This document shows positions 4,704-21,948 of a stretch of DNA of 21,948 nucleotides, one piece after another. A program made the position numbers and the translations under genes. The notes below the pieces were generated by a model. The model worked only from the letters and a program-made list of their open reading frames with translations. It did no database searches and was not told the origin of the DNA. The first letter of the stretch is position 1; each line of letters opens with the position of its first letter. Where the stretch lies: positions 1 through 21,948 of IMG/VR virus record IMGVR_UViG_3300032006_001108; one strand, written 5' to 3'. Origin of the DNA: a virus.

Positions 4704-4727
4704 TGTGCCAGTTGATAAACTGTCACA
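4704..4727. repeat. Inverted repeat (hairpin) just after the needle gene stop
   Basis: TGTGCCAGTT at 4704-4713 and AACTGTCACA at 4718-4727 are complementary at 9 of 10 positions, with one C/T mismatch and a GATA loop. The hairpin begins on the first base after the TAG stop at 4701-4703. It is followed by a G run (4729-4734), not a T run, so it is not an ordinary intrinsic terminator. It may protect the 3' end of the baseplate mRNA, mark a processing site, or bind a protein. Confidence 0.7.
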
Positions 4728-4763
4728 AGGGGGGTTGTCCGATCCCGAAGAAAATGTTAATAT

Positions 4764-4771
4764 TATAAATA
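4764..4771 (+). promoter_or_regulatory. T4-type late promoter (TATAAATA)
   Basis: An exact TATAAATA box, the consensus read by the T4-type late sigma factor gp55 with sliding clamp gp45. In T4 the box is centred at -10, which would put the start near 4777. The next gene on this strand is the exported protein at 4920, so the transcript would carry a leader of about 143 nt. It lies in a gap between genes and the same exact box recurs before the giant gene, so chance is less likely. Confidence 0.7.
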
Positions 4772-4776
4772 ACTTG

Positions 4777-4919
4777 AGTGGAGGCAACTTCACACAACTT
4801 AATAATAGACAAAGGCCCGAAAGATCGTACCCTGCGTTGAATGAAAACAGATCCCATGTCGAGGGACTCTATCATCCGCAGGATTTTTTTATTCTTGCGA
4901 GACACTCAAAAACACAAAC
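4777..4919 (+). other. Long 5' leader or non-coding spacer before the exported protein gene
   Basis: About 143 nt between the predicted late transcription start and the ATG at 4920. It looks richer in GC than the neighbouring genes in places (for example around 4813-4882). Near its end, ATCC at 4874-4877 and GGAT at 4881-4884 could form a 4-bp stem followed by seven T residues at 4884-4890, too weak to call a terminator. No clear Shine-Dalgarno sequence precedes 4920. A GTG-started frame crosses it from 4705 to 5001 but I do not believe it is a gene. The region may hold a structured leader or a small RNA. Confidence 0.4.
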
Positions 4920-5306
4920 ATGTCAATCAAATCAACAATCGCTGCTGTTGCAGCATCTCCATTCCTACTCGCTGGTGCAGCTTTTGCTGGTCCATACGTG
5001 AATGTTGAGAGCAATATCTCATATCCTGACGGAGACTACTCTGCAGCTACTACTGATCTTCATATCGGTTATGAAGGACAAGCTTCTGAGAAAGTTGCAT
5101 TCTATGTACAAGGCGGTCCTGCTTTCACAGCAGTAGACGGAACTGATGGTTCTGAAGGTGAACTATCTGGAAAAGCAGGTCTTAGTGTCGCTGCTACAGA
5201 TTCTCTAGGAATCTACGGTGAGCTTTCAGGCATTACTGACGAAGATTCTTCAGGTGACGATATCGTTAACTGGGGTGCTAAAGTTGGTGCTAAGTTCACA
5301 TTCTAA
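4920..5306 (+). CDS. Exported small beta protein, outer-membrane-protein-like (128 aa)
   Basis: The first 23 residues form a classic Sec signal peptide: MSIK, then a hydrophobic core rich in Ala and Leu, then AFA as a likely cleavage site before GPYVNVES. The mature part (about 105 residues) is made of alternating strands separated by Gly/Asp turns, including DLHIGYEG, KVAFYVQGG, LSVAATDSLGIYGEL and WGAKVGAKFTF. The final Phe and alternating pattern resemble the C-terminal beta signal of outer membrane proteins, though 105 residues is small for a complete barrel. The gene stands alone between an exact late promoter and a strong terminator, so it is probably made in quantity late in infection. 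I do not recognise a named family. It could be a host-derived porin-like protein, a surface-modifying protein (for example superinfection exclusion), or a secreted virion component. Confidence 0.8.
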   Translation: MSIKSTIAAVAASPFLLAGAAFAGPYVNVESNISYPDGDYSAATTDLHIGYEGQASEKVAFYVQGGPAFTAVDGTDGSEGELSGKAGLSVAATDSLGIYGELSGITDEDSSGDDIVNWGAKVGAKFTF

Positions 5307-5678: not shown

Positions 5679-5836
5679 TGATTATAGTTTTTATAATCGT
5701 AGGCATTCTTTTTGCCTTAGTAGGAGTAGGAATCTGGTTTACTTTTGGGCCAGGTAAAAAGGATGTTAGAGATCCTATAGCAGAACATGCTAAAATGCAT
5801 GAATTAGGTATTGCACACGGACATAGCAAAAAGTGA
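5678..5836 (+). CDS. Small single-pass membrane protein (52 aa)
   Basis: A 52-residue protein with one N-terminal membrane segment (residues about 2-23, IIVFIIVGILFALVGVGIW). A short polar tail follows: FGPGKKDVRDPIAEH, then a His-rich end (AKMHELGIAHGHSKK). The ATG shares one base with the previous stop and is preceded by AGAGG at 5666-5670. By the positive-inside rule the Lys/His tail would face the cytoplasm. The four histidines could bind metal or simply be charged contacts. The gene ends in TGA at 5834-5836, overlapped by the GTG start of cpeT, so the two are translationally coupled. I know of no named family for it. Confidence 0.75.
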   Translation: MIIVFIIVGILFALVGVGIWFTFGPGKKDVRDPIAEHAKMHELGIAHGHSKK

Positions 5837-6354
5837 ACGAATTCTTATCATTATTAGAGGGTGTCTTCTCAAATAAAACACAAGCACAGTGTCATCCAAC
5901 ACGCTATGCTCATATTTGGGTGACATACAAAAAAATTAGTGAGAATAGATATTATGGTGAACAGGCATATAATTATATGAGGCAGAGACCTTATTTACAG
6001 TATGTCATTGATATAGTTGAGGATAATGGTACGTTTCGTACAAAGAATCACGAGATCATCAAGACTCCTGAGAGATATTGTAATGGTGCTAATGTAGAAG
6101 AGATAACAGACGAACATTTAAGATTCCGTGAGCATTGTGATTTAGTTTTTAGAAAGGTAGGACACAATAGATATGAGGGTGGTACAGAAGGATGCAAGTG
6201 TTATGTTGATTGGGGTGGAAAGAAAACTTATATCATTAATCAAATAAGATTAGATGAGAATGAGTTACATATACTAGATACAGGTAAGGATGTTAATACA
6301 AACCAGAGAGTCTGGGGTTCTGAATACGGGTATCTTAAATTTGTGAGGCAATAG
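5833..6354 (+). CDS. cpeT: CpeT/CpcT-family phycobiliprotein lyase-like protein
   Basis: This 173-residue protein matches the T-type phycobiliprotein lyase family, which binds linear tetrapyrroles such as phycoerythrobilin in a beta-barrel pocket and attaches them to antenna proteins. Recognisable parts are the N-terminal LLEGVFSNKTQA, HPTRYAHIWVTYKK (residues 21-34), NRYYGEQAYNYM (38-49), the middle RFREHCDLVFRK, and RYEGGTEGCKCYVDW (113-127). The length is close to that of the family. Translation starts at GTG 5833, overlapping the previous TGA by 4 bases; there is no better ATG until residue 49. Such genes are widespread in cyanomyoviruses. A phage homologue has been reported to bind phycoerythrobilin without clear lyase activity, so the role may be bilin handling during infection. 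Confidence 0.88.
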   Translation: MNEFLSLLEGVFSNKTQAQCHPTRYAHIWVTYKKISENRYYGEQAYNYMRQRPYLQYVIDIVEDNGTFRTKNHEIIKTPERYCNGANVEEITDEHLRFREHCDLVFRKVGHNRYEGGTEGCKCYVDWGGKKTYIINQIRLDENELHILDTGKDVNTNQRVWGSEYGYLKFVRQ

Positions 6355-7346: not shown

Positions 7347-7354
7347 TATAAATA
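7347..7354 (+). promoter_or_regulatory. T4-type late promoter (TATAAATA) for the giant gene
   Basis: An exact TATAAATA box in the 104-base gap before the giant frame. With T4 geometry the transcript would begin near 7360, leaving about 30 bases before the ATG at 7391. Position and exact match together make this a good call. Confidence 0.85.
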
Positions 7355-7368
7355 AATCGAGAGATCTT

Positions 7369-7413
7369 ATGACGACGGCTCGGACGAATTATGCCATTAA
7401 CAAGACTGGATAA
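7369..7413 (+). CDS. Possible 14-codon leader ORF overlapping the giant gene start
   Basis: ATG at 7369 opens a short frame reading MTTARTNYAINKTG, which ends at TAA 7411-7413. It begins 22 bases before the giant gene ATG at 7391 and overlaps it in another frame. GAGAG at 7359-7363 is a better ribosome binding site for this ATG than anything before 7391. It could be a leader peptide that couples translation into the giant gene, or a chance frame. The evidence is only the ribosome-site geometry. Confidence 0.25.
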   Translation: MTTARTNYAINKTG

Positions 7414-10400
7414 CCTGATTACTAGTAAAACAGGTAAGTATCTATATGTTTCACCAGATGATTTTAACGCAACAGATGCGTTATCAAACAGAGGTAACTC
7501 CCCAGTAACTCCATTTAAGAGCATCCAGCGTGCTTTTATTGAGATTGCTAGGTATTCATATCTACCAGGTTTCGACAACGATAGATTTGACCAATTTACT
7601 ATAATGCTGATGCCTGGCATCCATTATATTGATAACAGGCCAGGTCTTGCAGATACTAGTGATATTGATGTATTTGGTTTTGATCAAGCAAATAATGCTT
7701 GGACAGATAATTCTATCTTAGATTTATCTAATCCTGATAATATCTACTATAAGTTTAACAATACTGAGGGTGGTGCAATCATTCCTCGTGGATCTTCTCT
7801 TGTTGGTTACGATCTTCGTAGAACTACATTACGTCCATTGTATGTTCCCGATCCAGCATCTTTATTATCTCCACGTACTGCATTATTCAACGTAACTGGT
7901 GGTTGTTATTTCTGGCAGTTTACTATTAAAGATGGTCAGACAACATCTGAATCTCCTCTTTATAATGCTTCAGCAGGTACTGGTGAAGTTTACTATGATC
8001 CTACAGATTTCACTAAGAAAACTGCTCCTAATTATTCTCACCATAAACTAACTGTATTTGAATATGCTGATTCAGAAGAGTTAGGTCTTTATTATAGAAA
8101 GATTGCTAAGGGATTCTCTGCATATCAACCTACTATTGATGATCCAGGTGAATTTGATCAGAGAGTTCAAGAGAACAGAATTGTTGGTCCTCTATCTGAC
8201 TCTCGTGTTATTGAGTCTTTAAAGTTTACTGATAGTACTACTGATCCTTCTATTCCTCCTTCAACAACAGAAATTGAAGTAACAACTAAAGTTGATCATG
8301 GTTACTTCCAAGGCCAGTTTGTTGGTATTTCTAACACAGAAATTGATGATGTACTTGAAGGTATATTCCCAATCACAAAGATTGATCAGAATGATACTCG
8401 TAAGTTCATTTATGAAGTTCCTGTTATAGCAACTGCTATCGGAACTAATATAGTATCTGGTCAGACAATAAGTGTAGATACTACTCCTGCATTAGGTCAG
8501 AACGCACAGACATTAGCAGAAGTTGACTCTGTTGAATCTGCTTCTCCATACGTCTTTAACTGCTCCATCCGTTCAACATGGGGTATTTGTGGTATCTGGG
8601 CTAATGGTCTAAAAGCAACTGGATTTAAGTCAGTTGTTATTGCACAGTATACTGGTGTATCACTACAGCAAGACGACAGATCATTCATTAGATATGATGA
8701 GTATTCAAATACTTGGAACCAAGCATCCTTAACAGATGCATTTGCAACAGTACCTTACCACACTAAGGGTGATTCATATTGGAAGGATGACTGGAGAAAC
8801 TTCCACGTTCGTGCTTCAGAAGATGCATTCATTCAGTGTGTTAGTATCTTCGCTGTTGGTTATGCTGATCACTTCCTAATGGAAAGTGGTGGTGATATGA
8901 GTATCACCAACTCTAACAGTAACTTTGGTAATACATCTTTACATGCTATTGGTCATAAGGGATTCTCCTTTAACCAAGATAAGGGTGGATATATTACTGA
9001 TATTATTCCTCCTCAACAGGTTGTAGATAGTGCTACTAATGTAGAGAAGATTCAATATTATACTGTTGATATTCAAGGAACAATTCAAAATCCTACCAAC
9101 TATACTAAGTTATTCTTAGGTAGTGAGGATATTATAGACCCATTGACTCGTCCTGCTGCAACAATTACAGGATATAGACTTGGTGCTAAAACAAATGAAA
9201 AATTAAACGTAAAACTTGAGAAAGGTGCTGTTGGTGATGAGTTCTTTAATGTAACTCTAGAACCAACAGGTTTTGTTAAGTATATCGCTAAAGGATCTAT
9301 ATTAAATCCAAGTGGATATGCTATTAATAATGTATATGCTGACGCTGCTAACTTGATTGAAAGCAACAGACGCATGATCCAAGAAGAGGTATTCGGATAC
9401 ATTCTTGAGAAATACCCAGATCTAAAAAATATTTCCTATGTAAATCCTGGCCTAGACCCTGCTGCAAATAGATATGCAGATGCTCGTGATCTAATTCAGG
9501 CAAACCGTCAAGAGATTGTTAATTCTGCATGGCAGAAGACGGTAGATACATATCCTGCACATTCTTCTGCTGAAGATAAGTGTAAGAGAGACATTGGATA
9601 TGTTGTTGATGCTATCTCAGAAGATTTAAGAGATGGTGGTAACGCTAATATTATAGAAGCAACAAAGACATACTTTGATGGTAGTGGAAATGCTATCGCA
9701 AATGGTGTAGTTGGTGAAGAAAGAGAAGCAGTTTATGCTTTCAATAGAGCAAGAGATTTATCTAAGCAAGCAATCGCTAATCTGTTAACAGTAACAGATG
9801 AGACTATTACTATTGACCCTGCTAATGCTATCAGTGCTTCATATACTCCAACTAATGCAGTATATGATCCTGCTACAGGTGACTTAGTTCTAACAGTTGT
9901 AGGGCATGGTTATACTGTACTTGATACACTTAAGATTTCTAGTGATTCATTGACATTTACATGTGCAATGGATAATAATGTATCACAGAAGAAATATCCT
10001 CGTGTATCAGATCCTGCATATGATAAGAAGTTAGCAATCAATTCAGTTACTAGTGATACACTTACTGTTAATATTGGTGCATCACCTATAGTTAACTATG
10101 ATGTTTCTAATGCAGTATATAATGAAGCAAGTGGTGAGATGGTTCTCACAGTTGGAACACATAATTTAGATTCTGGTAGTTCCATTAAGTTAGCAGATAA
10201 CTCACTATCATTCACATGTACTAAGGATGGTAATAGTGTAGCACAGTCATATCCACGTCCAGGAACTGATCCTGCTGCTAATACTGCAATAGCAATTACT
10301 GGTGTTGGATCTTCTAACATAACAGCAACAAATGCAACTTATACTCCTTCTACAGGAGCATTGCAATTAACTGTTGCTGGTCATGGTATTACTGCTCCAA

Positions 10401-13400
10401 CTACAGGAACTGTAACTGCTGCAACATATACACCATCATCAGGTGCATTAGTATTAACTATTAGTAATCATGGATTTAAGAATGGTGATCAGATAAGGAT
10501 CGCAGATAATTCTTTATCATTCACATGTACTAAAGACGGTGGTGCTCAACAGAAAACATATCCAAGATCAACTGACCCAGTTAGCAACAAGTGGATACCA
10601 ATTTCAAATGTAACTACGAATACATTTGAGGTTAATGTTGGATCTACAACTCTTGGAGATTTTCCACATACATTCCAATCAGGAACTGCTGGTGGTGTTG
10701 AGAAAGCAAATGGTGCAGTTAAATTAGATGATGGATCAATCACATTTAGTTGTGCTAAGGATAATAATGCTACCAACCATGCATATCCTAGATCATCTGA
10801 CCCTGCTAGTGGTCAGTGGTTACCAGTTTCTAACGTATCAACAAATACATTTGAAGTTAACATTGGTGTTTCTTCTGATGTATCTGCTCATACATTTGTA
10901 TCAGCAGTATCCAATGGTATTAAGAAACAAGATGGTACTATAACAATTAATGTTGGTGCTGCTGCTTCTGTTGGAGATCAGTATGCACATACATTCGTAT
11001 CTGCTACTGCTGGTGCTGTAATTTCTGGTGGTGCATATGCACATACATTTGTAAGTGCAGCAACTAACTCAGTTACTATCTACGCAGATAGAATTACAAG
11101 TTCTGCTAGTCGTAATAAGGATGCTAGAAACTTAATCATAGCAAACAAAGATTATATTCTTGATGGTGCTGTTGCTGAGGTAGCAGTATATCATCCAGAT
11201 TACTATAGTCCTGGAGATACACAAACTAATTCACAATCACGATTTGGTGATGCATTTAGATTCATCCGTCGTAACAGTAAGGAGATTAAGGATAAGGCCA
11301 TAGCACAAATTACTATGGATCATCCTGATTTCTACTTCCCTAACGATGCAGAAACAGATGATGGATCAAGATTTGCTGATGCATATCGTTTGATTATGCA
11401 AAACAAAGACTGGATCGTAGATCGTGGTCTTGGTAATATTGCAGTACAACATCCAGATTTCTATCATACTGGAGATGCTGCAACTACTCCATCTTCCAGA
11501 TTTGCAGATGGTTATCGTTTAATATTACAGAACAAAGCTTCTATTATCAATACAGTATGGGCCAATACTCTTACTGCATATCCTAATCATGTTCAGTATG
11601 AAGATAAGTGCAGAAGAGACACAGGTATATTCATAGATGCTATTGCTCTTGATGTATTCATGGGTGGTAACAGATATGCACGTAAGTTTGCATCTAGTTT
11701 CGGTAACTCACTATCTGGTGAAGAGACAGAAGCAAATTATGCATTCAACCAAGCAAGGGATCAGATGCAACTTGCTGCTAGTAACCAATTAGCAGTTCAG
11801 GATCTTACCCTAACTTCAGGTCCAGCAGATTATATTGCTGGTGGTGCTAATGTTCCTAATACAGATCCAGCAGCTTGTGCTGATGTAAGGAATGCAATCG
11901 CAACTCTTACAACTATTGTAACTGATGTTATTAGTGCTGGTAACTTGTCTGGTCTTCCAGCAGAAACCAGTTATGTTAGTGAGTTAGGTGAAGTTAAGTG
12001 TCGTAGAGACCTTGAGATCTTCGTTGAATCTCTTGCTCTTGACTTATTCATTAAAGGTAATGAGTACACATATAGATTTGCTGCTGAGTACTTCCAGAAT
12101 GCTACTACACCTATAACAAATGGTGTTGAGGGTGAAGAGGCAGAAGCAAATGCTGCTTTTGCTCAAGCAAAAGAAGAGATGAAGAAGGCGGTTACTAACC
12201 AACTCTTCGTTAAAGATTTAACTATTGTAGATAAGGCACCTGGATCTGATTATGGTGAGAATGATGAAAAGAGATTCACACCAACAGATGCATCATATAA
12301 CCCAACTTCAGGCGATCTTGTATTAACTATCGCAGGTCATGGATTAACTACAGGTGATTGCATTAACATTGCTGAGAATGGATTAACATTCACATGTGGA
12401 ATGGATGGTAATGCAAGTCAGAAGACATATCCTACATCTGCAAGTTCAAATTATGAGAAGTATGTTCAGATAACCACTATAACAGCTGACACCATCACTG
12501 TAAATATTGGTGGTGCTGGTGCTGATCAACAGTGGACACCAAGTAATGCTACTTATGATCCTGCTACAGGTGATCTTGTACTAACAATCGGTACTCATGG
12601 CCTAGCAGTTGGTGAAGGAATTGTCATTGAGAATGACTCTTTGACCTTTACCTGTGCTATGGATGGTAATAGTACTAACAAGACATATCCTCGTGCTGGT
12701 ATTGATGAGTATTCAGGTAAGTCTGCTACTATTACAGCAGTAGATTATACTAATGGTACTATCACAGTTAATATTAATGCTGCTGGTAGTAATAGAGACT
12801 TCACTCCTACTGATGGTACATACGAACCTTCAACTGGTATCTTAACATTAAATATTGGTCAGCATGGTATCGGTGTTGGTAGAAGTATTGTTCTTAAAGA
12901 TAATTCATTGACATTCAGTTGTGGATTTGGTGGCGGTGGTAATGGATCATATCCAAGACCAGGCACTGACCCTTATGCTGGTAAGTCAATTCTAATTACT
13001 AATGTTGGTGCTACTCAGCATACAGTAACTAACGCAGCATACACAGCTGCAACTGGAGCACTAACTCTTACAATTCCTACACATGGATTCTCAAATGGCG
13101 ATTACGTTAAGATCGCTGATAATTCTTTGACATTCACATGTGATAAGGATAATAATTCAAGCACACATACTTATCCTCGTACTAGCGATGCTGCTAGTGG
13201 TAGATGGTATGCTGTAAGTAATGTAACTGCTAACTCCTTCGATGTTAACGTTGGTGCAGCAGGATCATTCGGTCAATTCAATCATACATTTGTATCTGCT
13301 ACTTCAAATGGTGTAGACAGACAAGATGGTTGGATCACAATGAACGTTGGTGTTGGTACTGGTAGTAACAACGAAGCACATACTTGGGTTTCTGCTTCTA

Positions 13401-16400
13401 CTGATGCTGTTGAGTTCAGACCAAATACAACTCATACATTTGTAACTGCTTCAAATAATGCAATTAAGCATCTTCCACAAGCAACTCATACATTTGTAAG
13501 AGCTGCTACTGATTCAGTTATCTTTGGTGCTAATACAGATAACTCAATTAATACTCAGTATAACTGTGCTGATGTACAAGCAACTATTGATACTCTAGGT
13601 ACTATTGTAACAGATATCATTACTGCTGGTAATCTTAACTCTCTACCAAAAGAGATCAACAATGGATCTGGTGGAGTACATGAGAGTAAGTGTTTCAGAG
13701 ATATTGGAATCTTTATAGATGCTGTTGCTACTGACTTGTATACCACTGGTAACAAGCATACAAGAGCATTTGCACAACAATACTTCTCTGATACAACAAC
13801 ACCTATCCTTAATGGTTTTGTTGGAGAGCAGACTCAGTACACAACTGCTCTTAATGCTGCTGTAACTCAAATGAGAAACGCAGTTACTCAGTCAATGTAT
13901 GATAAGGATTTAACTATCACTGCTGATAATGCTCCTGGATCACCTTATGGCCAGACTCAGCAACAGTTTACTCCTTCTACTGCAACTTATGATCCTGCTA
14001 CAGGTGACTTAGTTCTAACCATGAATGCTCATGGATTAAGTGTTGGTAATAGAGTTAATATTGCTACTGGATCTCTTACATTCAGTTGTAACTATCAAGG
14101 AAGTGTAGGACAACAGAGTTATCCTCGTTCCAGTGACCCTGTAAATGGAGCATATATTGAAATTACTGCTGCTGATGCTAATACTATCACAGTTAATGTT
14201 GGTAGAGCTAAGTTTACAAATGAAGTTCATACATTTGTAAGTGCATCTGCTAATGCAGTTACGTTTGCTGGTAATACATCTAATCAGTACAATGATGCTT
14301 TATGTTCTGATGTTCAGTCAGCAATCGTAACACTTGGTACTATTGTAACAGATGCCATTACTAATGGTACTCTTGCTGGTATGCCAGTAGAGAACGCAGG
14401 AACATTCTTAACAGGTGAAGCCAAGTGTCGTAGAGACATGGGTATCTTCGTTGATGCTGTTGCACAAGACTTATGGTTCGGTGGTAATGAATTTACTATC
14501 GCTGCTACTAAGGAGTACTTTGATGGTAACACATTACTAGGTAATGGTGTTCAAGGAGAAGTTGATCCAGTGATCACAGCATTCAAACGTGCTGCTGATT
14601 TGATGAATCGTTCTCTTAACAACCTATACTATGTTAAGGATACAACAATCACATTAGATCAGGTTGGAGAACCAGCAATAGTCTCTAACATGCACGCTGA
14701 TGCACATGATCTAATCCGTACAAATAAAGAATTTATTGCTAGAGAAGCATATGAAAGAATGAAGGTAGATTTCCCTTCATATACTCCTTCTGCTGGCAAC
14801 ACAATGCAGGATTGTTTAGATGATATCTATGATGTCTTAAGAGAAGTTACATGGGATGTTAAGTTCGGTGGTAACAGTAAGACATATGATGTTGCTGAAG
14901 GATTCATTACTAATGAGTTTGGTGGAGTTAACTACACAACAGTTATTGAAGACGATAGAAGAGATGAGATCGTTCGTGTTTATGAGTATGTTAGCAGCAT
15001 TGCAATAGAAGTTCTTAACAACCTAACAGTTAGTGTTAATGGTAACAACCCATTAACTCAGACTAAGGATCTAACAATCGTAGAAGATTGGGATCTACCT
15101 GCTAACTTACCACATTGCGGTTCAGTTGTTGCTGATGTTGATACATTAATTGGTATCCTTATACAGTCACTTGGAACTACAACTGGTGGTGTTGGTAATC
15201 TTTCTGGTATCGTTAGAACTGCTGCTGGTTATGATGCAGTAACAGATCATTACAACCACACATTTGTTAGTGCTACTTCTAGTGGAATAACAATAGTTTC
15301 TGGTGGATCATTAACTGCTACTAATGCAACTTATACTTCACAGTCTGGTGATTTAGTTATCACTGCTGCATCTCATGGATTAAGTAATGGTGATAAGATA
15401 ATCATCACTAACAATTCATTGACATTCACATGTGATAAGGATGATAACTTCTCACAACATTCATATCCTAGAACAACAGATCCTGTTTCTGGTAAGGAAA
15501 TAGAAGTATCTGGAGTTACTACTGATACATTCACAGTTAATGTTGGTGCAGGTGGAGTTGGTAGAGTAATTTCATCAACATCTGATCCAGCATATGATAC
15601 TGCATTGCCAGTTAGTGCTGTTGATGCAACTTCAATTACTCTTAATGTTGGACCTTCTCCTGATAAGTCAGTTCATACATTCTTGAGTGCATCTACAGGT
15701 GCAGTAGTTTCAGGTGGTAACTATCCTCATACATTCTCACATGCTGCTAAAGGTGCATTAATTGCTGGTGGTGCATATGCTCACACATTTGTATCTGCTA
15801 CAACTGGTGCTGTATCATCTGGTGGTAACTATACACATACATTCATATCTGCTGTTAATAATGGAATCACAGCAAATACGGGTACTCAATACACAGTAAC
15901 GGGTGCTGCATATGATCCTGCTTCAGGTGATATTTCATTCACAAGTGTAGGCCATGGATTATCAACTGCTAATACTATTACCATTGCTGATGGTGCATTA
16001 ACCTTCAGTTGTGATATGGATAATGATGTTAGTCAGCATGTATATCCACGTTCAACAGACCCTGCTTCTGGACAATCACTAGCAATTACAAGTGTAACTA
16101 CAGATACATTTACAGTTAATGTAGGTTCATCACCTATCGTTCAGTTTAATGTAAGTAGTGCAACTTATAATCCTGCTTTAGGTGATCTAGTATTAACTAT
16201 TGGTGCTCATTCATTAGCAGTTGGTACAAGCATTAAGATTGCTAACAACTCATTGACATTCTCTTGTGAGATGGATGGCAATACTGCTAACAAGACATAC
16301 CCTCGTGTAAGTGATCCAATTGCTGATGAGGCAGTTACAATTACTGCTGTTACTGGAACAACAATCACAGTTGATGTTGGTACAACACAAGAAGTTAAGT

Positions 16401-19400
16401 ACGATATTTCAGACGCAACTTATGATGCTGGACTTGGAAGATTAACATTAGATATTGGAACACACGATCTAATGATTACAGATGGTGTGAAGATTGCTAA
16501 TGATTCATTGTTCTTCTCTTGTGGAATGGACAATAACGAGACTGTTAAGTCTTATCCAAGATCAACAGATCCAATATACAATACATCACTTGAGATTACA
16601 AATGTAGACAAGACATTCCATACAGCAGGAGCTGGTACAGCATATGATCCTGCAACTGGTGTCTTGACCATTGGAATGGCAAATCATGGATTCAATGCTA
16701 CAACATATGATACTGTAACTAATGGTTCTTATGATGCTGCTGCTGGTCAGTTAGTTCTTACAATTCCTAATCATACTTACAGAAATGGTGATAGGATAAG
16801 AATTGCAGATAACTCACTAACATTTGAGTGTAGTGCTGCTACTGGTACTCATACATTTGTAAGTGGTGTTGCTGATGCTATCTCATCTGGTGCATCTAAC
16901 TTCACAGCACAGGCTGGTACAACATACAATCCTGTCAGTGGTGATATGCAGATCACTCTTGGTACTCACAGTCTTACAACTGCTAACACAATTCAGATTG
17001 CAGATGGTGGTATTACATTTACTTGTGATGCTGACAATCATGCAACTAATCATTCATATCCAAGATCAACTGACCCTGTATCTGGTACAAACATTGCCAT
17101 CACTGCTGTAACTGCTACAACTATTACAGTTAACGTTGGTATTGCTAATCCAACAGGTAATGCTAAATCATATCCTCGTGCTGCTGATCCTGTAAGTGGA
17201 AGATGGTTATCTGTTACTAATGTAACTGCTAATACAATTGAAGTTAATGTTCTATTAGGTACTCCATCTACTAACTCTTCAGTACATACATTTGTATCTG
17301 CTGTTGCTAATGGAATTGAGAAGGCAAATGATTCTATTAAAGTATTTACAGATTCTCTTACATTTACATGTTTGAAGGATGGTAATACAGTACAGAAGAC
17401 ATATCCTAGAGCATCTGATCCAATAGCGAGTAGAGCGTGGTTACCTATCTCTAATGTAACACAGAATTCATTTGATGTGTTCGTTGGTAAAGGTGGTCCT
17501 AATGCTCAGTTTGATCATACATTTGTATCTGCAACAAGCAATGGAATTTGGAGACAAACTGGTAAGGTTTGGGTTAACGTTGGAACTACCACAAATGTAG
17601 AGCATACACCTACTGCTGCTGATTACAATCCAACAACAGGTGAATTGGTACTAACTATTGGTTCTCACTCACTAACAGTAGGTGAGAGTGTTAAGTTAGG
17701 AACTGAATCCTTAATCTTTACATGTGCTACAGATAATAATGCTACTAAACATGCTTATCCAAGAGCAGCAACGATAACACATCCAAGTACATATGCCTTT
17801 GGTAATTGTTCTGATGTTCTTGCTACTGTTGATACCTTGATTGGTATTGTTGGAGACGCATTGAAGGCAGGTACATTAGACACTCTACCATCACTAAGCA
17901 GTGGTGAGTGGGATTGTGCTAACGTTCGTGGTACAATAGAAACATTATATGACATCATAACAGATTCTATTACTGCTGGTAATATCAGTGGCCTACCTAC
18001 AGTTAATAAAGGAGACTTTACTCTTAACAGTGAGTCATCTAAGTGCTTCCGTGATATTGCATTCATCACAGATGCTGTTGTTAATGACTTAAGACTTGGT
18101 GGTAACATTAATAGTGTTCAGGCTGGTGAATCTTACTTCGTTGGTAATAACCTAGACTTCATTGATGCTGAGAAAGCAGAAACTATTGATGCTTACAACT
18201 ATGTTGGATCAGTAGCAACTGCTGCTATGAGGAACTTTGATGTTCTTGTATTCAATTGCTCTACTGATCAGACAGCTATAGTTGATGTTGGTGATACAAG
18301 AGGTATCATCATTGGTATGAGTGTTACTGAGTATGATGAGACTGGTGTATCACCTTATGTCAATGGTGCATTACAACCTGGTGCAACACCAATTTATACT
18401 AACATACCAGAAGGAACATATGTTAAGAGAATTGTTGATAATACTAAGATTGAACTTGGTGTTATCAATTCTAGATTAATTACTGGTAACACAGTCAATA
18501 CTTTACAAACAAGTAGCACAACTAATCTATTCTTTGCATTCACTAAAGGTGCATGGGCTGATACATTACCTCAAACAGATACATCTATCACTCAGGATAC
18601 AACAACTGCTCCTGGATCTTTACAGTGTGCAAGTACAGCTGCTGCTATCGACACATTGATAGGAGTATGTACTACAATTATTAATAGTGGTGTTGGATCA
18701 GTTACTCGTCAAGAACAGACAGTTAATACTGCATTACTTGCTTCCAGAGCAACAGTATTCACTATTGATACAACTGGTACTGGTTCATCTAATGCTCACG
18801 ACTTCGAGACTGGAACTCCCGTAAGATTGGTTCCAAGACCCCGTTTCGATACAGTCACACAGAAGTATGTTGAGGTTGATAAGAGACTTGTTAGACTACC
18901 TAATGGATTCTCTACTAACCAAATCTACTATGTAATTGCTCCAGGTAGAGTTACAGTACCAGAAAATTATAATGGTACTACATTCTTCAATGGTAGTGAT
19001 CAAACCAAGTTGATGCTTGCAACATCAAAAGAAAATGCTGCTGCTGGTATCTACATCTATGCATCTGAAACTGATGCTATTGATCCTGATGTTGAGATTG
19101 ATATCTATCAGTTTGTTCTTGATGATAAGTACGATCTTCACACATATAAGTGTGAGTTAACTAATGCAGTTAATGCTGGTATTGAAACTGATATTTCAAA
19201 TATCTTTGATAAGCCATCTGCATCTACTACTCCTCATAGAGTATTCTTTAGAGGAATTGATGGTGGTGACTTACCTTTAGTTGCTACAACATATGTTAGT
19301 GGTAATAATTCAGCAGTTGCAGATCTTGCTACTGGTAGACTTAATGGTAAGACAGAGTTCTATGCTCGTTACCAAAATGCTAAGGTATTTACCATCCATG

Positions 19401-21948
19401 AAACACATGCTGATGCTATTACTGGAGCAAATCCAATAACATTCCAGTCTGGACAAACATTATCATTTAATGTATTTGCTAACAAGCGTAGAAGTCCATT
19501 CCAGTTTGAACCTGGATTCACTGATAATGTAACTACAACTGGTAAGTGGTATGTTCAGACTAAGGATGAGCATACAAGCAGCGATAATATATTCTGGAGA
19601 ATTCATCAGAATGATTATGCTGATAGACCTAAGACCACTGACATGTGGTATGAGCGTCTTAAGGATGTTCGTGAGGCAGATGAAAGAACATACAAGTTAC
19701 GTTATGTTATTCCTAAGTATCTTGAGAACGCAAGAGATCCTATCAATGGATTTGTTATCAAGACAAGAACTGACGATACTCGTAAGATAATTCCACAGAA
19801 GATCTTATTGAAACCTGTAAGTGGTAACCAATTTGGTGCTAGGTTCGAGAACCCAAGACAAGCAGGTGAATATATTGGATACACTGATACAGACTTTACA
19901 TCCAATAACTTAAACAAAGATCTTGCATATGATCCATATAGAAAGGATCTAACTGGTGCTGGTATTGATTACCGTGCATTTATTCGTACAACCAGTGGTA
20001 TTCAGGCCACAATTCAGGGTGCTCGTTATGTAGCAGATCAATTAGATAATTCTATCAATTATCTTGAACTAACTGTTTATGACCATGCAGTTGACATTGT
20101 TAACTATCCTGGATTAAGAAACGATAAGTTTACAACAGTTAAGATCACTGCTCCTCAAGGTGGAGACTTTATAACCAGTAAGACACAGAGTATTACTGCT
20201 AACCAAATTGAATGGACTGGTAATTCATCTGGACTTGGTAATATACATGGCTACTACTCAGTTGGAAGTGACCATTACCTAATTCTGAAAAATTTACGCG
20301 GCGGAAAATTAGAGTTCTCAGAATTCACTCAAACTAGATTCACTCAAGGATCTGTATTCGCTGATATGGTAGAGGATCAGGACTTTGGTAAGTCATTACC
20401 ACTTAAGACCTTGATCGCTAAGGGATATCCTGAGTATTACTATAAGCAAGATGGTGCAAATGTTTACACTATTACTCCTGGTGATACTGTAACTGACAGT
20501 GCTGGTGTTCAATACTATGTTGAGTCTGTTACTGATGCTGGTATCATTGATGATACATTCTACATCTTTGGTTATGAGACATTACAGAAACGTATCGCAG
20601 GTCAGCAAGATGGTGTTTACTATCTAACTTGCTTACGTGGTAACATGTCACCATTCCCAACTGGTGCTGGTGCTGGTGGAAACTTCCAGAGATTCAAGTT
20701 CTCTCAGCCAGTTAGCAAACTATATCCTCTAAACTACAGAAACGATCCTCTCTGGTTTAAGAACTCAGGTACAACAAACGAAGAGAAAAATCTATATGCT
20801 AATTTAATTGATCCACCTCAAGCGTTCTCTGCTGCTGATAACTATACTCATGGTTTAGTTACAGTTAACGACTATAAGAACTCTGTAACAAGAGAAGGTG
20901 TTGAGGATCTAATTAAACAACCTGCTTTCATTGAGAACACATATACTGGTTCTAATAAGATTCAGGCACAACTTGGTAATGCAACCTCTGGATCAGAAGA
21001 TAGATTAATTCCTATCGCTGGTAACAGTACAGTTCTATCAGATCAAAGATACTACGTTGAATTACGAAGACCATCTATCGCAAGAGCAGGTAACCACACG
21101 TTTGAATACCTTGGTTTTGGTCCAGGTAACTACTCAACTGGTCTACCAGCTAGACAGGAAGTAGTTCTAACACCAGAAGAAGACTTCTATGCTCAGTCTA
21201 AGAAGCAAGATGGTGGTATTGTATTCTACACTGGTATTAACTCACAAGGTGACTTGTACATTGGTAATAGAAGAATCAATGCTATCACAGGTGAAGAAAC
21301 ATTTATAGATGCTGCTACATTACAAGATGATGGAGATAAGGATGATGTAATTGGAAGTCTAGTTACTACCTTTGACACCCCTGTAACATTCAACCAGAAT
21401 ATTACAGTCGTTGGTGGAGAAGGAACACTACCTAATACATTTGAATCTCCTCTAATTGTATCTGTACAGGATAATGATCTAACACAGGAACGTCATGCTG
21501 TTATTGTTCGTTCTAATGTATCATCTGTTGATCCTGTAACACAACTAGAACAAGATGAGTCATTAAGTAGAACTGCATTCACTCCACCAACTAAGGGTGA
21601 TATTCAGATCAGTAAGAACCGTGTTAATGCTGCTATCTTTGGATTTAATGCCAGAGGTAATGGTCAAGAGTACATGTTCCAGACACATACTGGTGGTACT
21701 GGTTCTCTTCCATCTAATATGACACCAAACAATAGTGATTTGGTTGGCAACCCTGGTGGAACTAGACTTGCTAGTGAACAATACACCATGTATGGTAATG
21801 TTTTACCAAGACCAGGTGATGTTTTACTCAAAGGTAAGGAAGTAGGAAGAACTGGTTCACTTGGATGGATATATGCAAACTACTATGAACCAATTGCTGA
21901 TACAAGTATATTCACTATTGAGTTTATTAATTCTGGAAGTCTAGTTAA
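7391..21948 (+). CDS. Giant modular virion structural protein, VrlC-like (3' truncated, at least 4852 codons)
   Basis: One frame runs from ATG 7391 to the right edge with no stop; the upstream in-frame TGA at 7370-7372 and the late promoter at 7347 fix this start. Residues 1 to about 640 are non-repetitive and begin MPLTRLDNLITSKTGKYLYV; they include GIWANGLKATGFKSVVIAQY, VRASEDAFIQCVSIFAVGY and MESGGDMSITNSNSNFG, which read like beta-helix turns. Residues about 640-3780 are built from five shuffled repeat families annotated separately. From about 3780 onward the protein is non-repetitive, Tyr- and Asn-rich, and includes GDIQISKNRVNAAIFGFNAR. No enzyme motif, signal peptide or membrane segment was seen. 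Composition is dominated by Thr, Ser, Gly, Ala, Val and Asn. The best guess is a very long tail or surface fibre, as annotated loosely as VrlC-like in cyanomyoviruses; that label is from memory. Confidence 0.85.
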   Translation, partial: MPLTRLDNLITSKTGKYLYVSPDDFNATDALSNRGNSPVTPFKSIQRAFIEIARYSYLPGFDNDRFDQFTIMLMPGIHYIDNRPGLADTSDIDVFGFDQANNAWTDNSILDLSNPDNIYYKFNNTEGGAIIPRGSSLVGYDLRRTTLRPLYVPDPASLLSPRTALFNVTGGCYFWQFTIKDGQTTSESPLYNASAGTGEVYYDPTDFTKKTAPNYSHHKLTVFEYADSEELGLYYRKIAKGFSAYQPTIDDPGEFDQRVQENRIVGPLSDSRVIESLKFTDSTTDPSIPPSTTEIEVTTKVDHGYFQGQFVGISNTEIDDVLEGIFPITKIDQNDTRKFIYEVPVIATAIGTNIVSGQTISVDTTPALGQNAQTLAEVDSVESASPYVFNCSIRSTWGICGIWANGLKATGFKSVVIAQYTGVSLQQDDRSFIRYDEYSNTWNQASLTDAFATVPYHTKGDSYWKDDWRNFHVRASEDAFIQCVSIFAVGYADHFLMESGGDMSITNSNSNFGNTSLHAIGHKGFSFNQDKGGYITDIIPPQQVVDSATNVEKIQYYTVDIQGTIQNPTNYTKLFLGSEDIIDPLTRPAATITGYRLGAKTNEKLNVKLEKGAVGDEFFNVTLEPTGFVKYIAKGSILNPSGYAINNVYADAANLIESNRRMIQEEVFGYILEKYPDLKNISYVNPGLDPAANRYADARDLIQANRQEIVNSAWQKTVDTYPAHSSAEDKCKRDIGYVVDAISEDLRDGGNANIIEATKTYFDGSGNAIANGVVGEEREAVYAFNRARDLSKQAIANLLTVTDETITIDPANAISASYTPTNAVYDPATGDLVLTVVGHGYTVLDTLKISSDSLTFTCAMDNNVSQKKYPRVSDPAYDKKLAINSVTSDTLTVNIGASPIVNYDVSNAVYNEASGEMVLTVGTHNLDSGSSIKLADNSLSFTCTKDGNSVAQSYPRPGTDPAANTAIAITGVGSSNITATNATYTPSTGALQLTVAGHGITAPTTGTVTAATYTPSSGALVLTISNHGFKNGDQIRIADNSLSFTCTKDGGAQQKTYPRSTDPVSNKWIPISNVTTNTFEVNVGSTTLGDFPHTFQSGTAGGVEKANGAVKLDDGSITFSCAKDNNATNHAYPRSSDPASGQWLPVSNVSTNTFEVNIGVSSDVSAHTFVSAVSNGIKKQDGTITINVGAAASVGDQYAHTFVSATAGAVISGGAYAHTFVSAATNSVTIYADRITSSASRNKDARNLIIANKDYILDGAVAEVAVYHPDYYSPGDTQTNSQSRFGDAFRFIRRNSKEIKDKAIAQITMDHPDFYFPNDAETDDGSRFADAYRLIMQNKDWIVDRGLGNIAVQHPDFYHTGDAATTPSSRFADGYRLILQNKASIINTVWANTLTAYPNHVQYEDKCRRDTGIFIDAIALDVFMGGNRYARKFASSFGNSLSGEETEANYAFNQARDQMQLAASNQLAVQDLTLTSGPADYIAGGANVPNTDPAACADVRNAIATLTTIVTDVISAGNLSGLPAETSYVSELGEVKCRRDLEIFVESLALDLFIKGNEYTYRFAAEYFQNATTPITNGVEGEEAEANAAFAQAKEEMKKAVTNQLFVKDLTIVDKAPGSDYGENDEKRFTPTDASYNPTSGDLVLTIAGHGLTTGDCINIAENGLTFTCGMDGNASQKTYPTSASSNYEKYVQITTITADTITVNIGGAGADQQWTPSNATYDPATGDLVLTIGTHGLAVGEGIVIENDSLTFTCAMDGNSTNKTYPRAGIDEYSGKSATITAVDYTNGTITVNINAAGSNRDFTPTDGTYEPSTGILTLNIGQHGIGVGRSIVLKDNSLTFSCGFGGGGNGSYPRPGTDPYAGKSILITNVGATQHTVTNAAYTAATGALTLTIPTHGFSNGDYVKIADNSLTFTCDKDNNSSTHTYPRTSDAASGRWYAVSNVTANSFDVNVGAAGSFGQFNHTFVSATSNGVDRQDGWITMNVGVGTGSNNEAHTWVSASTDAVEFRPNTTHTFVTASNNAIKHLPQATHTFVRAATDSVIFGANTDNSINTQYNCADVQATIDTLGTIVTDIITAGNLNSLPKEINNGSGGVHESKCFRDIGIFIDAVATDLYTTGNKHTRAFAQQYFSDTTTPILNGFVGEQTQYTTALNAAVTQMRNAVTQSMYDKDLTITADNAPGSPYGQTQQQFTPSTATYDPATGDLVLTMNAHGLSVGNRVNIATGSLTFSCNYQGSVGQQSYPRSSDPVNGAYIEITAADANTITVNVGRAKFTNEVHTFVSASANAVTFAGNTSNQYNDALCSDVQSAIVTLGTIVTDAITNGTLAGMPVENAGTFLTGEAKCRRDMGIFVDAVAQDLWFGGNEFTIAATKEYFDGNTLLGNGVQGEVDPVITAFKRAADLMNRSLNNLYYVKDTTITLDQVGEPAIVSNMHADAHDLIRTNKEFIAREAYERMKVDFPSYTPSAGNTMQDCLDDIYDVLREVTWDVKFGGNSKTYDVAEGFITNEFGGVNYTTVIEDDRRDEIVRVYEYVSSIAIEVLNNLTVSVNGNNPLTQTKDLTIVEDWDLPANLPHCGSVVADVDTLIGILIQSLGTTTGGVGNLSGIVRTAAGYDAVTDHYNHTFVSATSSGITIVSGGSLTATNATYTSQSGDLVITAASHGLSNGDKIIITNNSLTFTCDKDDNFSQHSYPRTTDPVSGKEIEVSGVTTDTFTVNVGAGGVGRVISSTSDPAYDTALPVSAVDATSITLNVGPSPDKSVHTFLSASTGAVVSGGNYPHTFSHAAKGALIAGGAYAHTFVSATTGAVSSGGNYTHTFISAVNNGITANTGTQYTVTGAAYDPASGDISFTSVGHGLSTANTITIADGALTFSCDMDNDVSQHVYPRSTDPASGQSLAITSVTTDTFTVNVGSSPIVQFNVSSATYNPALGDLVLTIGAHSLAVGTSIKIANNSLTFSCEMDGNTANKTYPRVSDPIADEAVTITAVTGTTITVDVGTTQEVKYDISDATYDAGLGRLTLDIGTHDLMITDGVKIANDSLFFSCGMDNNETVKSYPRSTDPIYNTSLEITNVDKTFHTAGAGTAYDPATGVLTIGMANHGFNATTYDTVTNGSYDAAAGQLVLTIPNHTYRNGDRIRIADNSLTFECSAATGTHTFVSGVADAISSGASNFTAQAGTTYNPVSGDMQITLGTHSLTTANTIQIADGGITFTCDADNHATNHSYPRSTDPVSGTNIAITAVTATTITVNVGIANPTGNAKSYPRAADPVSGRWLSVTNVTANTIEVNVLLGTPSTNSSVHTFVSAVANGIEKANDSIKVFTDSLTFTCLKDGNTVQKTYPRASDPIASRAWLPISNVTQNSFDVFVGKGGPNAQFDHTFVSATSNGIWRQTGKVWVNVGTTTNVEHTPTAADYNPTTGELVLTIGSHSLTVGESVKLGTESLIFTCATDNNATKHAYPRAATITHPSTYAFGNCSDVLATVDTLIGIVGDALKAGTLDTLPSLSSGEWDCANVRGTIETLYDIITDSITAGNISGLPTVNKGDFTLNSESSKCFRDIAFITDAVVNDLRLGGNINSVQAGESYFVGNNLDFIDAEKAETIDAYNYVGSVATAAMRNFDVLVFNCSTDQTAIVDVGDTRGIIIGMSVTEYDETGVSPYVNGALQPGATPIYTNIPEGTYVKRIVDNTKIELGVINSRLITGNTVNTLQTSSTTNLFFAFTKGAWADTLPQTDTSITQDTTTAPGSLQCASTAAAIDTLIGVCTTIINSGVGSVTRQEQTVNTALLASRATVFTIDTTGTGSSNAHDFETGTPVRLVPRPRFDTVTQKYVEVDKRLVRLPNGFSTNQIYYVIAPGRVTVPENYNGTTFFNGSDQTKLMLATSKENAAAGIYIYASETDAIDPDVEIDIYQFVLDDKYDLHTYKCELTNAVNAGIETDISNIFDKPSASTTPHRVFFRGIDGGDLPLVATTYVSGNNSAVADLATGRLNGKTEFYARYQNAKVFTIHETHADAITGANPITFQSGQTLSFNVFANKRRSPFQFEPGFTDNVTTTGKWYVQTKDEHTSSDNIFWRIHQNDYADRPKTTDMWYERLKDVREADERTYKLRYVIPKYLENARDPINGFVIKTRTDDTRKIIPQKILLKPVSGNQFGARFENPRQAGEYIGYTDTDFTSNNLNKDLAYDPYRKDLTGAGIDYRAFIRTTSGIQATIQGARYVADQLDNSINYLELTVYDHAVDIVNYPGLRNDKFTTVKITAPQGGDFITSKTQSITANQIEWTGNSSGLGNIHGYYSVGSDHYLILKNLRGGKLEFSEFTQTRFTQGSVFADMVEDQDFGKSLPLKTLIAKGYPEYYYKQDGANVYTITPGDTVTDSAGVQYYVESVTDAGIIDDTFYIFGYETLQKRIAGQQDGVYYLTCLRGNMSPFPTGAGAGGNFQRFKFSQPVSKLYPLNYRNDPLWFKNSGTTNEEKNLYANLIDPPQAFSAADNYTHGLVTVNDYKNSVTREGVEDLIKQPAFIENTYTGSNKIQAQLGNATSGSEDRLIPIAGNSTVLSDQRYYVELRRPSIARAGNHTFEYLGFGPGNYSTGLPARQEVVLTPEEDFYAQSKKQDGGIVFYTGINSQGDLYIGNRRINAITGEETFIDAATLQDDGDKDDVIGSLVTTFDTPVTFNQNITVVGGEGTLPNTFESPLIVSVQDNDLTQERHAVIVRSNVSSVDPVTQLEQDESLSRTAFTPPTKGDIQISKNRVNAAIFGFNARGNGQEYMFQTHTGGTGSLPSNMTPNNSDLVGNPGGTRLASEQYTMYGNVLPRPGDVLLKGKEVGRTGSLGWIYANYYEPIADTSIFTIEFINSGSLV
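9335..9530 (+). repeat. Pair of helical repeats (DARDLIxxNRxxI type)
   Basis: Two copies of a helical motif, YADAANLIESNRRMI (Asp codon at 9341) and YADARDLIQANRQEI (Asp codon at 9479), are 46 residues apart. Each is followed by a loop containing a Tyr-Pro (EKYPDL, DTYPAH). This is the same family as the exact 43-residue array at 11117. Confidence 0.75.
9560..9800 (+). repeat. Helical module B1 (KCKRDIG type)
   Basis: The signature is EDKCKRDIGYVVDAISEDL, then GGN, then YFDG, NGVVGEEREAVYAFNRARDL. It is one of about seven copies in the giant protein; each has one Cys followed by an amphipathic helix, a GGN turn and a second helix pair. Confidence 0.75.
9863..10973 (+). repeat. Beta-module cluster A1 (about 4 copies)
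   Basis: About four copies of an 80-90 residue module. Each runs YxPxTGxLxLTIxxHG, then a strand IADNSLTFTC, a D-G/N-N turn, YPRxxDP, and finally ITxVTxxTxTVNVG. Cores lie near 9945, 10195, 10510 and 10737. Fragments of half modules occur at 10330-10470. Strand pattern suggests an all-beta domain. Confidence 0.8.
10988..11073 (+). repeat. 18-residue HTFVSA repeat, two units
   Basis: HTFVSATAGAVISGGAYA starts at 10988 and the next HTFVSA at 11042, exactly 54 bases later. This is the first tandem cluster of a short repeat that recurs about 17 times singly or in tandem through the giant protein. Confidence 0.8.
11117..11566 (+). repeat. Exact 43-residue (129-base) helical repeat array, four units
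   Basis: Four units whose aligned Asp codons fall at 11120, 11249, 11378 and 11507, each 129 bases apart. Consensus is RFADAYRLIxxNKxxI, a helix, then HPDFYxxGDxxTxxxS. The fourth unit runs into the B2 module. Helical solenoid-like spacing is likely. Confidence 0.85.
11567..12235 (+). repeat. Helical modules B2, C1 and B3
   Basis: B2 reads EDKCRRDTGIFIDAIALDV (near 11600). C1 reads ACADVRNAIATLTTIVTDVI, then AGNLSGLP (near 11872). B3 reads EVKCRRDLEIFVESLALDL (near 11990), followed by NGVEGEEAEANAAF and VKDLTIVDKAPGSDYG. C followed by B at about 40 residues recurs elsewhere. Confidence 0.78.
12275..13370 (+). repeat. Beta-module cluster A2 (about 4 copies)
   Basis: Cores GLTFTCGMDGN (near 12380), SLTFTCAMDGN (near 12640), SLTFSCGFGGG (near 12905) and SLTFTCDKDNN (near 13125), about 75-90 residues apart, each with the HG turn before and a YPR or YP motif after. 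The cluster ends in NHTFVSATSNGVDRQDG. Confidence 0.82.
13379..13537 (+). repeat. 18-residue HTFVSA repeat, three units
   Basis: His codons at 13379, 13433 and 13487 begin HTWVSASTDAVEF, HTFVTASNNAIKH and HTFVRAATDSVIF, exactly 54 bases apart. The first half of each unit is conserved and the linker varies. Confidence 0.82.
13558..13930 (+). repeat. Helical modules C2 and B4
   Basis: C2 reads NCADVQATIDTLGTIVTDII, then AGNLNSLP. B4 reads ESKCFRDIGIFIDAVATDLY, then FAQQYFSD and NGFVGEQ, ending YDKDLTITADNAPGSPYG. This is the same C-then-B order and KDLTI linker as at 11872-12235. Confidence 0.78.
13967..14217 (+). repeat. Single beta module A3
   Basis: One full module: FTPSTATYDPATGDLVLTM, HGLSVGNRVNIATGSLTFSC, YPRSSDP, then ITAADANTITVNVGR. 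Its bases 13988-14019 are identical to 9863-9894, a 32-base exact match between copies about 4.1 kb apart. Confidence 0.82.
14300..15220 (+). repeat. Helical modules C3, B5, one 43-type repeat, B6 and C4
   Basis: C3 is LCSDVQSAIVTLGTIVTDAI. B5 is EAKCRRDMGIFVDAVAQDL, followed by GGNEFTIAATKEYFDG. An isolated DAHDLIRTNKEFI (near 14699) is a 43-type unit. B6 (QDCLDDIYDVLREVTWDV, GGN) is degenerate. C4 (HCGSVVADVDTLIGILIQSL) is near 15113. Confidence 0.7.
15311..15655 (+). repeat. Beta module A4
   Basis: One full module (SLTFTCDKDDN near 15415, YPRTTDPVSG, VTTDTFTVNVG). A second partial closing half follows (SDPAYDTALPVSAVDATSIT), lacking its front strands, as if modules had recombined in the middle. 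Confidence 0.75.
15674..15868 (+). repeat. 18-residue HTFVSA repeat, four units
   Basis: His codons at 15674, 15728, 15782 and 15836 give an exact 54-base period. Units read HTFLSASTGAVVSGGNYP, HTFSHAAKGALIAGGAYA, HTFVSATTGAVSSGGNYT and HTFISAVNNGI. This is the longest run of the short repeat. Confidence 0.88.
15887..17777 (+). repeat. Beta-module cluster A5 (about 7 copies)
   Basis: Cores near 16000, 16255, 16505, 16815, 17010, 17355 and 17710 carry ALTFSC, SLTFSC, SLFFSC, SLTFEC, GITFTC, SLTFTC and SLIFTC. The copy at 16815 is cut short and runs directly into HTFVSG. An extra YPRAADPVSGRW half module lies near 17170. The last copy ends in YPRAATITHPS before helical modules resume. Confidence 0.82.
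17800..18720 (+). repeat. Helical modules C5, C6, B7 and C7
   Basis: C5 is NCSDVLATVDTLIGIVGDAL, C6 is DCANVRGTIETLYDIITDSI then AGNISGLP, and B7 is SSKCFRDIAFITDAVVNDL then GGN. After a non-repetitive insert of about 130 residues, C7 (QCASTAAAIDTLIGVCTTII) begins near 18621. This marks the end of the repetitive part. Confidence 0.72.

Follow-up and report, generated by a model that had tools for sequence, protein, structure and literature searches.

Analysis of the window (the whole stretch of DNA studied here, an entire virus record of 21,948 bases) indicates that its giant gene most probably encodes a tail-fibre-type protein of a T4-like marine cyanophage, with conserved ends and, between them, an insertable and shuffled array that holds captured structural or binding modules of phycobiliprotein fold; we give this reading a probability of roughly 0.8. 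Judged by sequence profiles, both ends are those of a known, conserved cyanophage tail-fibre protein, and the giant protein is a variant of that fibre family with an added shuffled array. Family names and gene context would place it in the virion.

The gene begins with an ATG at 7391 and runs as one frame of 4852 codons, with no stop, to the window edge, where it is still open (7391..21946, forward strand). The last 716 residues are identical (100%, rounded) in two other IMG/VR contigs, whose open frames have 5693 and 6145 codons, and the stop found in the longer contig sets the full-length protein at about 6,140 residues. The single frame of at least 4852 codons claimed by the first-pass annotation is borne out by the window and by the near-identical contigs that carry the same frame, and extension of the contig to the stop, which had been proposed as a check, gave the end of the gene. 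Since other contigs carry this gene at 100% identity and named phages have homologues of it, an artefact is ruled out. Module-bearing open frames longer than the window's gene occur elsewhere, in P-RSM6 (8573 codons), P-TIM40 (7352) and P-SSM4 (7312).

The phrog_4527 profile matches both ends of the protein, with 1326 bits over residues 1-610 and 1714 bits over residues 3747-4852. The fixed N-terminal region (residues 1-640; 7391..9310, forward strand; phrog_529 and phrog_4527) is common to module-free fibres, and the fixed C-terminal region (residues 3641-4852; 18311..21946, forward strand), which matches the same two families, runs past the window end. In all nine phage fibres compared, the N-terminal region aligned from residue 1 to at least residue 544, with a break near residue 100 in both S-PM2 and Syn1, and the C-terminal region aligned whole or piecewise. 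The tail protein of S-WAM2 (AOV61722.1; phrog_4527 / phrog_529) is the product of the same gene, being 83% identical in the N-terminal 640 residues and 70% identical in the C-terminal region, and both have genes for a CpeT homologue, tRNA-Thr and endonucleases upstream. The two proteins differ in length (about 6,140 residues for the window, 4,759 in S-WAM2) and in the number of full beta units, of which the window has 16, S-WAM2 three, ACG-2014e two and the fibres of S-PM2, Syn1 and S-H9-1 none.

S-WAM2, ACG-2014e and S-H9-1 are colinear with the window protein over its residues 1-640 and 3641-4845, and residues 641-3640 (3,000 residues) form an insertion relative to module-free fibres. A comparison of module content among related phages, also suggested by the first-pass annotation, revealed that the stretch between the fixed flanks shrinks from 3,000 residues in the window to 1,579 in S-WAM2, 1,109 in ACG-2014e, 489 in S-H9-1 and 138 in S-PM2 and Syn1. 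Module-free relatives exist as well, since Syn9, P-SSM2, S-SM2 and P-HM1 carry pieces of both ends in single ORFs of 1,318-1,987 residues, and the module search in these fibre ORFs gave no match. S-PM2 and Syn1 have additional modules at about fibre residue 100, a position where the window has none, and therefore the fibre has at least two plug-in sites. In these two phages the phycobiliprotein-like insert covers fibre residues ~95-650, and residues 80-101 of the window align on either side of it, which is perhaps a short duplication. Modules of this kind are not confined to the fibre: P-HM2 has them in its giant protein gp7 and S-PM2 in the product of a second giant gene, and 37-41 of 41 modules matched each of four PHROG structural families.

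The giant gene adjoins baseplate hub genes. Upstream are two hub genes, one for a gp5-type baseplate hub (769-3606; Gp5_OB with Calx-beta) and another of hub type (3597-4703; DUF2345 type); a cyanophage outer-membrane-like barrel (4920-5306); a CpeT/CpcT-family bilin lyase homologue (5833..6354, forward strand; PF06206, E 7.4e-35); an HNH-like ORF, which at 20.8 bits falls slightly short of its cut-off; a tRNA-Thr gene; and a gene for a 2OG-Fe(II) oxygenase. The gp5-type hub is divided over the first two of these genes, the OB fold with its inserted Calx-beta lying in the first and the DUF2345-type part in the second; a Pfam search of both (E up to 0.01) gave no lysozyme domain. The motif TATAAATA, which we take to be the T4 late promoter consensus, lies upstream of the giant ORF at 7347..7354 (forward strand), and it stands 43-48 bases ahead of the start codon in all five genomes checked (window, S-WAM2, ACG-2014e, S-H9-1 and Syn1). 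Its count in the window, two found against 2.89 expected, is not above chance; the second copy is at 4764-4771, upstream of the barrel gene at 4920. The giant gene would probably be expressed late, in a T4-like marine cyanophage. The PHROG matches at the ends, the hub neighbours, the upstream motif and the variation in insert length all agree with the earlier proposal of a very long, expandable fibre, as far as a tail-fibre-type protein is concerned; what that proposal missed is the kinship of the helical modules with phycobiliproteins, their retained pigment-site cysteine and their occurrence in further giant phage proteins.

The array was resolved with HMMs that were built on units of the window itself and then iterated across the loci. 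The scan gave seven full helical modules, four half helical modules (helices A/B only), 16 full beta units and five partial ones, arranged as hHBBbBBhhhHHBBBBHBHHBbBBBbbBbBBH (H and h, full and half helical modules; B and b, full and partial beta units), all on the forward strand. A half helical module (9332..9448) is followed by full phycobiliprotein-like module 1 (9470..9796, CKRD at residue 731), which was modelled, by beta-unit cluster 1 (9842..10873), by three tandem half helical modules (11111..11494) and by full phycobiliprotein-like module 2 (11498..11800, CRRD). After these come full helical module 3 (11873..12214, CRRD), beta-unit cluster 2 (12275..13261), full helical module 4 (13562..13906, CFRD), a single beta unit (13967..14209), full helical module 5 (14303..14638, CRRD) and full phycobiliprotein-like module 6 (14690..15034, CLDD, with the Arg replaced). 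The array ends with one full and one partial beta unit (15311..15658), the last and longest beta-unit cluster, which includes partial units (15890..17842), and full helical module 7 (17912..18244, CFRD). Modules 1, 2 and 6 are of the AB type, and modules 3, 4, 5 and 7 have an alternative N-half with the same CxRD half. Thirteen HTFV-type (HTFVSA) repeats, counted by one sequence pattern, lie between units. The alternation of beta and helical clusters with half modules, which had been noticed earlier, was confirmed by the HMM scan, and partial units are present too; the earlier count of five repeat families is about right if these are taken as the AB-type full modules (three), the full modules with the alternative N-half (four), the AB halves, the beta units and the HTFVSA repeats.

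The highest DNA identity between any two full units is 0.716. In a comparison that excluded near-identical contigs, the nearest relative was found in another contig or phage for all 11 helical units and for nine of the 16 beta units; for the other seven beta units it was a unit within the window protein. The low identity between units and the nearest relatives elsewhere indicate that growth by duplication and recombination, as had been suggested, is plausible but old. Recent tandem duplication is ruled out by the same identity values and the pattern of nearest relatives.

Across the 13 beta units aligned (window 9842-17842), one Cys (TF[TS]C) is invariant and a YP pair is shared. The first unit of cluster 2 reached a pLDDT of about 80 in a joint model, and Foldseek and VIA returned weak matches to the beta-unit model. 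The beta domain of the K1F / phi92 endosialidase gave Z 6.0-6.2 and 2.0-2.1 Å over 71-72 residues (three best chains), a weak likeness from which we make no claim, since chains of ubiquitin-activating enzyme and of phage tail tubes had similar Z (5.8-6.0). The best match of the beta-unit profile against the PDB was at 0.013, among assorted proteins, and in a Pfam search with the 13 units any one family appeared in at most two. The beta units probably represent a second filler family that was expanded in some lineages.

For the helical modules, sequence comparison and predicted fold together make a convincing case for kinship with phycobiliproteins. A Pfam search with the whole window ORF (E up to 0.1) matched the Phycobilisome family (PF00502) alone, at 1.4e-7 and 32.1 bits (cut-off 22.2), and none of the four end pieces of the protein had a Pfam match at E up to 0.01, in line with the earlier remark that no catalytic motif is visible. 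When the seven module pieces were searched singly, three matched PF00502 (one above the cut-off) and the four pieces with the alternative N-half did not. The piece 11093-11830 scored 24.6 bits, over the 22.2 cut-off, with its best stretch in the first of the three tandem half modules, and single modules scored 14.6-18.4 bits, under it. Among 41 diverse modules, Phycobilisome was found in 30 at E up to 0.1, and every other family once. A six-frame PF00502 scan of the window gave nothing above the cut-off, the best match being module 6 (17.9 bits), and at E 10 the same scan also matched four of 14 control genomes (one of them above the cut-off), namely Synechococcus elongatus, the sole one expected, and three others including E. 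coli.

Searches against the PDB pointed to the same family. With one module, phmmer found phycocyanin in 10 of 11 matches (E 0.022-1.3), the remaining one being a transketolase; a 41-row profile gave 142 matches (best 1.3e-5), of which the best 60 are all phycobiliproteins. Comparison by hhalign with two cyanobacterial phycocyanin alignments, which had been separated by means of a simple motif and are not cleanly alpha versus beta as the second retains alpha-like sequences, gave probabilities of 94.6-96.0 and E from 6.5e-8 to 4.8e-9 with C(x)RD in register, over 61-67 columns only (helices A/B to E).

The structure of AB-type module 1 was predicted by AlphaFold2 from a 34-row alignment (pLDDT 89.1, pTM 0.81), with helices at 4-18, 20-34, 36-62, 66-72 and 91-109, and the predicted model has the phycobiliprotein core fold. 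Among the best 50 Foldseek rows (E 0.014-0.17, none at 0.001 or better), 49 are phycobiliproteins, and so are 49 of the best 50 VIA-align rows (2.0-3.5 Å over 103-114 residues), whose Z of 11.6-12.4 must be read against a Z of about 13 attainable by chance for helical models, so that the fold alone is no proof of kinship. The exception in each list is one entry titled just "Bacterial fluorescent protein". BFVD gave 14 matches with E no higher than 0.001, and the nine named ones are Synechococcus phage proteins. A joint model of module 3, of the alternative type, with a beta unit was poor, its helical part reaching a pLDDT of about 45.

The AB-type model aligns from phycobiliprotein residue 23-33 onward, the modelled piece beginning at the A helix. 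We take the modelled helices to be A, B, E, F' and G, with no counterpart of the N-terminal X/Y helices or of the C-terminal H helix. In phycobiliproteins the X/Y helices serve alpha-beta pairing. As the modelled piece has no X/Y helices and a bilin is only putative, the modules are classed, on the predicted structure, as phycobiliprotein-like and not as phycobiliproteins. They share with the phycobiliproteins (PF00502; phycocyanin alpha and beta) the core fold, the profile match and a conserved Cys, with Arg and Asp in most; they differ in the helices mentioned, in standing serially in one chain and in belonging to a phage gene of structural type. The core-membrane linker (ApcE / LCM) likewise holds a phycobiliprotein domain inside a larger multi-domain protein, but it is cellular and has one such domain plus linker repeats, and no Pfam match to linker-repeat families was found in the window ORF. 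We found no earlier description of a phage structural protein with a phycobiliprotein domain in the open-licence literature that we searched.

The Cys of the modules aligns with Cys-84 of phycocyanin, and they thus have an attachment cysteine of the Cys-84 type. In phycobiliproteins the Arg and Asp of CxRD contact the bilin. The seven full modules of the window read, in order, CKRD, CRRD, CRRD, CFRD, CRRD, CLDD and CFRD, that is, Cys in all seven and CxRD in six. Across loci, 796 module rows were reduced to 487 with the Cys, Arg and Asp columns and enough length, and to 126 after thinning at 70% identity; in this non-redundant set Cys is kept in 118, Asp in 121, Arg in 96 and all three in 96, and the Cys is among the most conserved of 113 alignment columns. 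Of the AB-type rows with the Cys, 140 of 167 (not de-duplicated) have no second Cys inside the matched part and therefore no disulphide within the module. The alternative-type modules have an extra Cys just ahead of the matched part (ACADV, NCADV, LCSDV; window 11876-11878), and a disulphide between it and the CxRD Cys is possible.

The retained Cys, Asp and full CxRD, and the second Cys absent from most AB-type rows, favour an alternative in which the modules are working biliproteins and the fibre is pigmented, with bilin put on the Cys by host lyases such as CpcS, by self-loading or by a phage CpeT. A further point in its favour is that, of the 23 records with modules, 19 have CpeT, and of the six module-free ones none. 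These 29 records, searched with the module profile and PF06206, comprise 19 with modules and CpeT, four with modules only, six with neither and none with CpeT only. They were picked by module matches (13), by DNA similarity to the window (one), by CpeT matches (five) and by our own choice (10), and among the last P-HM1 was already a module match and HTVC008M is a Pelagibacter phage. Lineages are shared among the 29 records, and the module-free cyanophages may represent few lineages. The co-occurrence thus comes from a biased sample and follows lineages, and we reject it as proof of a pigment link, as the Cys is retained independently of CpeT: in the fetched stretches it is kept in 82 of 93 modules of CpeT-positive phages and in 11 of 13 of CpeT-negative ones. 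P-SSM4 has CpeT but the Cys in none of its three modules, and B23 has no CpeT yet shows CxRD in five of five. The full CxRD is present in just 54 of the 106 modules of the fetched stretches (46 in CpeT-positive and eight in CpeT-negative phages). A bilin reductase was detected in six of 18 module-bearing and two of five module-free records (eight of 23 searched), with no clear association, and its presence in the two module-free phages also speaks against this alternative.

The lyase type does not fit well either: the T-type lyases are described for Cys-155 and not for Cys-84, one passage naming Cys-155 as their target (PMC2327270) and another Cys-153 (PMC10452541). For Cys-84 of most phycobiliproteins the acting lyase is given as CpcS, and LCM as self-loading, in a passage of the former source (PMC2327270), and by analogy host CpcS or LCM-like self-loading could take the place of CpeT for a putative module pigment. 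Taken together, we consider it unlikely that the modules are working biliproteins. The broader proposal, that many marine T4-like cyanophages would carry a putative virion pigment as bilins at the Cys of fibre modules, and that some cpeT, pebS, pcyA and ho1 genes would serve the particle and not the host antenna, is more doubtful still.

The low identity, the short aligned stretch and the readiness with which helical folds match could also mean that the similarity is convergence upon a generic five-helix module, with CxRD arising by chance. Different sequence searches gave one family, however, and the hhalign controls failed, with five column-shuffled profiles at 0.1-0.34% and one reversed profile at 5.0% (against the first of the two alignments). 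Between the Cys and the GG pair, the alignment with phycocyanin alpha is ungapped. Convergence is accordingly very improbable.

The distribution of the modules is that of cyanophages. A tblastn search with one module matched 359 of 50,697 phage records, 358 of them named Synechococcus, Cyanophage or Prochlorococcus and one "Marine virus", and the best 20 named phages by DNA similarity to the window are all Synechococcus phages. A profile search found no modules in HTVC008M, the Pelagibacter phage, which belongs to the Kyanoviridae. The module profile had no match at E up to 1e-6 in 386 cyanobacterial genomes, which shows just that no phage-like copy stands out, since host phycobiliprotein-sized frames score about 1e-5 to 1e-4; a scan of genome contigs with one module likewise gave no relative. 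Two contigs, titled as MAGs of Bifidobacterium breve and Prochlorococcus marinus MIT 9215, encode phycocyanin alpha and are likely mislabelled or from contaminated bins. A fold that is the host protein's, and matching records that are cyanophages by name bar the one unassigned, would suit modules that mimic phycobiliproteins and attach to some part of the host machinery (a linker, a lyase or a subunit of the antenna) in infection instead of building the fibre, but this is a remote prospect, as the modules stand in repeated arrays within tail-type giant proteins and are present in P-HM1 and P-HM2, phages of Prochlorococcus MED4, a genus described in a passage of one source as having no (standard) phycobilisomes (PMC2984593).

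We thus favour a tail-fibre-type protein whose conserved fibre ends enclose an array of small domains, shuffled and insertable. For the helical domains the most likely origin is a phycobiliprotein of cyanobacteria captured by a phage ancestor, and they most likely act as stackable structural or binding parts that determine how long the fibre is and what surface it presents, with a presumably mechanical or adhesive role. Reuse of an antenna-protein fold as a building block repeated along a viral fibre would show strikingly how a metabolic protein of the host can become virus structure. The conserved Cys of the pigment site additionally raises the question of pigment on the virus particle. A passage of one study states the puzzle of what advantage bilin genes give to cyanophages of Prochlorococcus, a host with no standard phycobilisomes (PMC2984593); a pigmented fibre, if true, would be a concrete candidate answer to it.
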